64,000 nt of DNA from Gammaproteobacteria bacterium (GTDB lineage Bacteria; Pseudomonadota; Gammaproteobacteria; SZUA-152), in assembly GCA_011321815.1 (NCBI GenBank), contig DROS01000040.1, positions 62,001 to 126,000 on the forward strand. Reading direction: 5' to 3'. Below, piece by piece: positions 26,506 to 26,849 of this stretch. Made by a program: the position numbers and the translations under genes. Under the pieces are notes generated by a model. That model made no database searches, was not told the origin of the DNA, and saw nothing but the letters and a program-made list of their open reading frames with translations. Position 1 is the first letter of the stretch. Every line of letters starts with the position of its first letter.

Positions 26506-26849
26506 AAGTAAAAAACTGTCCCTAAAATAAGTTTGCGCGAGGAGTCTGTCGGACTTAGGGAATCGTCGCGAGAGAAAACCATTTTGAGTCCATTTTTTTT
26601 GATCGTTTGAGGCGAATATTGGACATATTCAACGAAAAGGATCGAGAAAATGGGCCGAAATGGTTTTTTCGCAGTAGATTCACCCTAAGTCCGACAGACC
26701 CCTAGTTATACGTCTGTGCACAAAAAAATGATCCGCACATTTAATAACCATTCCCGGCCTGCGTTCGGTTTATATTCTCACCTAAATCCTGCCAGCGGTC
26801 GTGCTTGCGCTGAATGCGTGCGATCACTGGCAGTGATTTCGGTTTCAGA
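26506..26849. other. pilT-pilU spacer carrying an inverted-repeat element
   Basis: The gap contains no gene. Its core is the 156-bp inverted-repeat element annotated separately. The remaining flanks show no promoter that I can support; TATATAAAG near the pilT end is within AT-rich sequence but oriented with no clear -35. Confidence 0.5.
26544..26699. mobile_element. MITE-like element with 17-bp terminal inverted repeats
   Basis: The ends are perfect inverted repeats: GTCTGTCGGACTTAGGG at 26544-26560 and its reverse complement at 26683-26699. Inside, the two halves continue to pair imperfectly (AAAACCATTT about 26 bases in on each side, then CCATTTT and GATCG), and the centre has GAATAT/ATATTC (about 26614-26630). 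The whole is a near-complete 156-bp hairpin with no coding capacity. This is what a miniature inverted-repeat transposable element or an imperfect palindromic repeat family looks like. No clear target-site duplication is seen. It sits between pilT and pilU, which are co-transcribed in relatives. Confidence 0.75.

Follow-up and report, generated by a model that had tools for sequence, protein, structure and literature searches.

A 160-bp IS1182-type miniature element between pilT and pilU, with a conserved interior fold that may serve its own spread

MITEs normally need only their ends. REP and REPIN sequences are short palindromes that are spread in trans by RAYT transposases, with the single-stranded hairpin as the recognized form; the family described here differs from them in that its ends correspond to those of a DDE element that duplicates its target. 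Correia elements (CREE/NEMIS) of Neisseria have other ends and a TA target. They resemble the present family in being short, gene-free, palindromic, numerous, and mostly intergenic. REPs measure 20 to 40 bp according to an excerpt of PMC3733652. For Correia elements, the excerpted text of PMC10969869 describes effects on host transcripts, whereas the present family is randomly oriented to genes. An IS1182-family MITE of Methanosarcina acetivorans (partner, ISMac2) is described in part of PMC3852290 as 160 bp long, with a 26-bp inverted repeat, a 4-bp direct repeat, and 14 copies, together with a second IS1182 MITE of 169 bp without a direct repeat. The IS1182 partner, the length of 160 bp, and the 4-bp repeat are common to the former and to the element studied here; the M. 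acetivorans MITE is archaeal, and the comparison is by this partial description only. IS1272 belongs to the same transposase family, and structure is taken to matter for its transposition (excerpt of PMC5678879). The same excerpt has IS1272 replacing a stem-loop without duplication, whereas the present family duplicates 4 bp at CTAG. The replacement of stem-loops by IS1272, as given there, makes a structure-reading transposase plausible here. The Thiomargarita MITEs were set aside as, to judge from the excerpt of PMC4853749, different elements.

The element in the window and its insertion site

The window, i.e., the whole stretch of DNA that was analyzed (64,000 nucleotides), contains the features collected in Table 1. 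The sequence-only reading had placed a MITE-like, gene-free hairpin at 26544 to 26699. Perfect 17-bp inverted ends were found exactly at 26544 to 26560 and 26683 to 26699, and the 17-bp end had two matches with up to three mismatches allowed (0.05 expected). The inverted repeat reaches 21 nt at 95%. Comparison within the family revealed element borders of the form GAG...CTC, with the window copy ending in CCC instead. The inverted ends had thus been placed correctly, and the full element is slightly longer than proposed, 160 bp. Its plus strand, which starts with GAGTCTGTCGGACTTAGGG, ends with CCCTAAGTCCGACAGACCC, and is antisense to pilT and pilU, is almost fully self-complementary. Folded as RNA, this strand gave -86 kcal/mol (z, -11.5; equaled by none of 200 shuffles), and the minus strand gave -73 kcal/mol (z, -11.1; far below 200 shuffles). 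No open reading frame of at least 80 amino acids in the list of frames overlapped the element. The near-complete hairpin without a gene was thereby confirmed.

Table 1 Features of the element and its neighbors in the window
Feature	Position	Strand	Basis or remark
pilU, downstream neighbor, 384 aa	25351..26505	-	PilU search
Target duplication, copy 1, CGAG, taken as mutated CTAG	26538..26541	.	Congener empty site
Whole miniature element, 160 bp	26542..26701	+	+ is the strand with the family-conserved fold
Left terminal inverted repeat, GAGTCTGTCGGACTTAGG	26542..26559	+	IS1182-family elements have identical or closely related ends
Interior hairpin with three conserved unpaired motifs	26560..26683	+	Alignments A1 and A2, model R1
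Right terminal inverted repeat, reading GGGTCTGTCGGACTTAGG on the - strand	26684..26701	-	
Target duplication, copy 2, CTAG	26702..26705	.	Congener empty site
pilT, upstream neighbor, 345 aa	26850..27887	-	

Comparison with congeners revealed the empty site. Read on the strand of pilU, the sequence is uninterrupted ATAACTAGCGCAGACTT with a single CTAG in three congeners (G002, G003, and G009), and a fourth (G007) has an uninterrupted site with CCAG instead of CTAG. On this strand, the corresponding sequence in the window is ATAACTAG-element-CTCGCGCAAACTT, with flanks CTAG and CTCG, so that one base differs between the duplication copies. Because four congeners have one uninterrupted site, the element in the window is, as judged from this comparison, an insertion with a 4-bp target duplication. 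One CTAG became CTAG plus CTCG, and the base change is taken as a later mutation. The 4-nucleotide flanks of 101 distinct elements were CTAG on both sides in 51 cases and CCGG on both sides in 1; the remainder comprised 1 nonpalindromic direct repeat, 2 mutually reverse-complementary pairs, and 46 that were neither. Since CTAG is palindromic, the evidence for the duplication lies mainly in the empty sites.

Several further observations were made at such sites. In a fifth congener (G005, L309), a diverged element occupies the same CTAG-like position in the pilT-pilU gap; the two may go back to one old insertion, or the site may have been hit twice independently. At L045:1196-1519 and L123:4700-5024, one CTAG separates two tandem elements, and the duplicated target seems to have been reused as a target. 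In the region upstream of pilU, a stretch of about 45 bp on the upstream side of the insertion (GGAATGGTTATTAAATGTGCGGATCATTTTTTT...CGTATAA) is strongly conserved between the window (26702-26770) and L305 to L309, perhaps as a pilU promoter or regulatory site.

Copies, distribution, and candidate mobilizer

A search of the genome to which the window belongs (3.58 Mb, 109 contigs) revealed 40 distinct places matching the element at an E value of ≤1e-3, some of them partial, with overlapping matches on both strands merged. Fourteen of these places abut a contig end and are possible halves of one copy, which gives 33 to 40 real copies. Many copies were 97 to 99% identical to that in the window, four places were 81 to 82% identical, and two were 73 to 77% identical. 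Matches were obtained in 20 of 24 genomes of the same family, the own genome included. The element is therefore neither single copy nor without relatives, the combination that was to have spoken against a mobile or repeat family. The proposal of a MITE-like mobile element is upheld by the multiple copies, by the 4-bp duplication together with the empty site of four congeners, and by the ends shared with IS1182-family elements. One own-genome copy (L074:904-1063) has its centre inverted relative to the arms, as arm-to-arm recombination would give.

The distribution extends beyond this family of genomes. A scan of named genomes for GAGYCTGTCGGAYTTAGG gave at least 115 stretches, of which 80 were listed. 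The same size and inner layout were found in the isolates Pseudomaricurvus alcaniphilus, Saccharospirillum impatiens, Massilia glaciei, and Geotalea toluenoxydans, and likewise in contigs of metagenome-assembled genomes (MAGs) labeled Nitrospirales, Zetaproteobacteria, Bacteroidetes, Verrucomicrobiia, and Eremiobacterota, labels that binning may have made wrong. With the partner end allowed up to 4 kb away, the length was 159 to 162 bp in 30 of 44 distinct elements from the 80 listed loci and in 49 of 70 from the at least 115 stretches; the lengths given by the element finder, which was restricted to 140 to 180 bp, were not used as evidence. The interior-only model R1 matched 49 of 398 genomes at an E value of ≤1e-5 in an even draw from the phylum (own genome counted) and 30 of 338 among the better assemblies. 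The phage search gave no match to the element, the plasmid search gave one (72%, on a Pseudomonas plasmid), and five stretches of viral contigs carried the end. At the gathering score, Rfam yielded only tRNAs in nine element-bearing loci, and its matches in the window region all lay below that score. Literature searches with the end and interior strings returned no relevant paper, and none was found on MITEs combined with IS1182 and CTAG; PMC11860680, which came up with the interior strings, was regarded as a fortuitous hit in a paper on another subject. By these literature and Rfam searches, the element family is widespread and apparently undescribed.

Variants and neighboring repeats were also seen. 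Three elements of an FCPU426 MAG (G061; L241:1501, L253:1501, and L261:2345) have the same ends and a retained length of 160 to 162 bp, with a quite different inner hairpin, TCCCCCTTTGAAAAAGGGGGATTGAGGGGGATTT, in which the conserved interior is not recognizable. Another short repeat, CGGCAACTGCTCCATGCGTTGCTCTACCTCCTGCATCCATGCAGTCG, lies within three such elements, in either their left or their right part, and close to a fourth (L129:227, minus; L151:4925, plus; L164:278, minus; L353:1771, minus). A similar stretch occurs in the pilT-pilU gap of G005 (L309). It looks like a further small mobile repeat.

Analysis of complete and partial insertion sequences with such ends pointed to the IS1182 family. 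In a Synergistaceae MAG (G057, L186), an IS1182-family transposase scoring over the NF033551 cutoff (E value, 3.2e-84) has an open frame that starts 36 bp inside a CTAG-GAGCCTGTCGGACTTAGG end. An insertion, IS3-like by eye, splits this gene, and a second end, CTAG-GAGCCTGTCGGACT, lies beyond the gene's C-terminal part. In M. glaciei (G065), a 1,687-bp insertion sequence with a transposase over the same cutoff has CAGCCTGTCGG ends at CTAG. In G126, a 1,715-bp insertion sequence, likewise with a transposase over the cutoff, has GAGGCTGTCCGAGAA ends; two of eight miniature elements examined in this genome have an end identical over 18 bp to its right end, and the others differ slightly. A deleted remnant in G061 retains both ends and a C-terminal IS1182 piece, and incomplete IS1182 genes, singly below the cutoff, lie beside one such end in G205 and G077. 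In terms of end sequence, the element's ends are shared with IS1182 transposons in other genomes (G057, G065, and G126; remnant in G061), and the mobilizer is very probably an IS1182-family transposase.

An autonomous insertion sequence with the same or closely related ends exists in other genomes, and the own assembly gave no partner: in this 109-contig draft, the search with the DUF772 (IS1182-type) profile had no match. The local mobilizer may have been lost, unassembled, or missed, and partners may sit in assembly gaps. Six DUF772 loci of the family genomes were without the ends, and the NF033551 search left 8 of 41 genomes chosen for such ends or interiors unmatched (4 of 19 and 4 of 22). 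An IS630 parent, suggested by TA in the flanks, was rejected, as two IS630-type loci among three DDE_3 matches were without the ends; the third own-genome DDE_3 match was partial and lay outside this comparison. R1 had no match inside the examined IS1182 elements. Of its two matches in the IS1182 searches, one was L125, a non-IS1182 locus, and the other was an element adjoining an IS1182 fragment in L372.

Interior fold and strand preference

Alignment A1 comprised 48 rows, i.e., 47 of 55 nonredundant elements and the window copy; seven odd or truncated elements and one of 172 bp were left out. Alignment A2 comprised 41 rows, without the window copy and six more of the A1 rows. R1 was scored on eight other own-genome copies and other family members, the window copy not among them. 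A1 yielded 54 consensus pairs, 42 of which showed two-sided compensatory changes. Two-sided cells numbered 421, compared with 142.7 in shuffled alignments and 53 to 149 with the partner slid; these counts use a structure taken from A1 itself and are not tree based. The alignment also has three recurrent, mostly unpaired motifs, given here for the conserved strand: CGTAGCGAG/CGCAGTAG, CGAGNCC/GGNCC, and TGAGGCG/AACGA. In 31 R1 matches, conservation was 83% in unpaired and 67% in paired columns. These comparisons suggest selection on the interior as a structured single-stranded nucleic acid.

The same interior was found with different ends. Among 30 loci recruited by R1, one of them from the own genome, 20 had a pair of window-type ends (up to six mismatches each). 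Eight of the other ten had ends of the type GAGGCTGTCCGAGAAT (L336, L337, L340, L341, L345, L353, L354, and L355, the last cut by the contig on its left side). Of the last two, L356 is contig-cut with a window-type end on the right, and L358 is degenerate. One conserved interior thus occurs with two kinds of ends.

Folding and base-pair analyses revealed a difference between the strands. The A1 consensus energy was -60.0 kcal/mol on the conserved strand versus -24.2 kcal/mol on the other, and the conserved strand folded better in all 48 A1 sequences (means, -83.9 versus -68.5). In A1 columns with at least 50% Watson-Crick pairs, a strand-blind filter, G-U outnumbered A-C by 144 to 56 (29 columns versus 8; P = 0.0008); at 75% or more, the counts were 111 and 54. 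For pairs predicted on the reverse strand, the filtered counts were 81 G-U and 60 A-C (18 columns versus 10; not significant), and without the filter the preference was turned round (81 versus 136). The 31 R1 matches, which were found and aligned by a model that favors its own strand and which are not all independent of it (some are 90 to 99% identical to an A2 row), gave 71 G-U versus 12 A-C, and all 31 folded better on the conserved strand. In the 16 that were less than 80% identical to any model row, the counts were 41 versus 5 (17 columns versus 2), and 16 of 16 folded better on that strand. These data suggest that the fold belongs to one strand of the element.

The orientation of the element was compared with that of its neighbors, using elements with enough flank and a simple longest-ORF rule. 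Among 86 elements, those between codirectional neighbors were sense in 21 cases and antisense in 22, and 19 lay between convergent and 23 between divergent neighbors. Because orientation to host genes is random, a transcription- or replication-linked mutation bias is an unlikely source of the strand preference, and the hairpin probably serves the element's own spread. The GC skew of the flanks was positive in 35 of 75 and unbiased, giving no sign of a replication-strand preference.

Alternative explanations and meaning of the fold

The sequence-only reading had suggested that the insertion may alter the PilT:PilU balance, through termination, RNA processing, or a new promoter. The pilT-pilU gap is 344 bp in the window, 204 to 207 bp in three element-free congeners, and 307 bp in the fourth; in seven loci with PilU 76 to 81% identical (six of genus g3 and one labeled as the same genus), it is 26 to 36 bp. 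The wide gap in the three element-free congeners indicates that tight coupling of pilT and pilU was lost before the insertion. At the window element, the site scan found nothing resembling a terminator; it gave a single promoter-like site (0.8 expected), which lies on the strand opposite pilT-pilU. With these results and the random orientation, the suggestion was not sustained, and from the sequence features compared here the effect of the insertion on pilT-pilU looks incidental.

In the preferred reading, a nonautonomous miniature element would be mobilized in trans by an IS1182-family (DDE) transposase, which would insert it at CTAG and duplicate those 4 bp; the landing between pilT and pilU would most simply date from after the lineage split from its close congeners. 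The approximately 125 bases between the ends would be an old hairpin and not leftover sequence, unlike in an ordinary MITE, preserved on one strand through compensatory changes, and the whole element usually measures 159 to 162 bp. The self-folding strand would be needed for the spread of the element, either as a structure read by the transposition machinery or as an RNA that helps mobilization, and the fold would not serve the neighboring host genes. We hold the MITE part alone with high confidence; for the role of the fold in mobility, the chances appear about even. The combined statement, an IS1182-mobilized MITE whose conserved fold serves its own spread, is on balance probable. We propose tentatively a new kind of nonautonomous mobile element, in which an old folded single-stranded nucleic acid of near-fixed length, carrying unpaired conserved motifs, travels with different IS1182-family ends, its fold, in RNA or in single-stranded DNA, being read during mobilization or acting in trans on the transposase.

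Arm-to-arm template switching could yield the two-sided changes without selection, and an ordinary IS1182 MITE would need nothing more: only the ends would matter, and a founder hairpin would have spread between species. This fits with the sufficiency of ends in MITEs generally, with the inverted centre of the L074 copy, and with the recent spread evident from very similar copies. However, template switching would erase mismatched motifs, yet these persist, and in the 31 R1 matches conservation is higher in unpaired than in paired columns. Such an element also predicts no strand preference, but G-U exceeds A-C, and the interior persists with two kinds of ends. We therefore regard this explanation as doubtful. 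Alternatively, the hairpins could be a landing pad, in that structure-reading IS1182-family elements insert into or replace them and they persist as a preferred target. IS1272, which is counted in the IS1182 family, replaces stem-loop targets (excerpt of PMC5678879), tandem elements over one CTAG occur in L045 and L123, and in L372, 4 bp separate the element from an IS-type end beside the IS1182 fragment. But the tandem cases add an element at CTAG without replacing a hairpin, the insertion in the window went into a short CTAG site and duplicated 4 bp, and a target role alone would not preserve the interior, so that this alternative appears quite unlikely.

A role in host gene expression is very unlikely. 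The element would act within the pilT-pilU transcript as Correia elements do, by terminating it, by being cut by RNase III, or by altering pilU translation. The minus-strand transcript is predicted to fold at -73 kcal/mol; the insertion directly follows TATAAC, a possible -10 box common to four congeners, so that the element could become a pilU leader; and RNase III cuts Correia transcripts (excerpt of PMC10969869). Against this stand the random orientation to neighbors, the presence of the nonconserved strand in the pilTU transcript, the absence of a terminator-like site in the scan, and the wide gap in element-free congeners. These objections apply to a selected role and not to a local side effect.

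The known part of the finding, an IS1182-type MITE, is secure; the new part is an interior that appears to behave as a selected structured single strand. As a widespread family, with the interior model matching 49 of 398 genomes of the phylum, it is relevant to genome annotation. In the usual view, a MITE consists of ends and an irrelevant middle, whereas here the middle is the conserved part, and on one strand. Should mobility require the fold, DDE transposition in the IS1182 family would have a structured nucleic-acid component.
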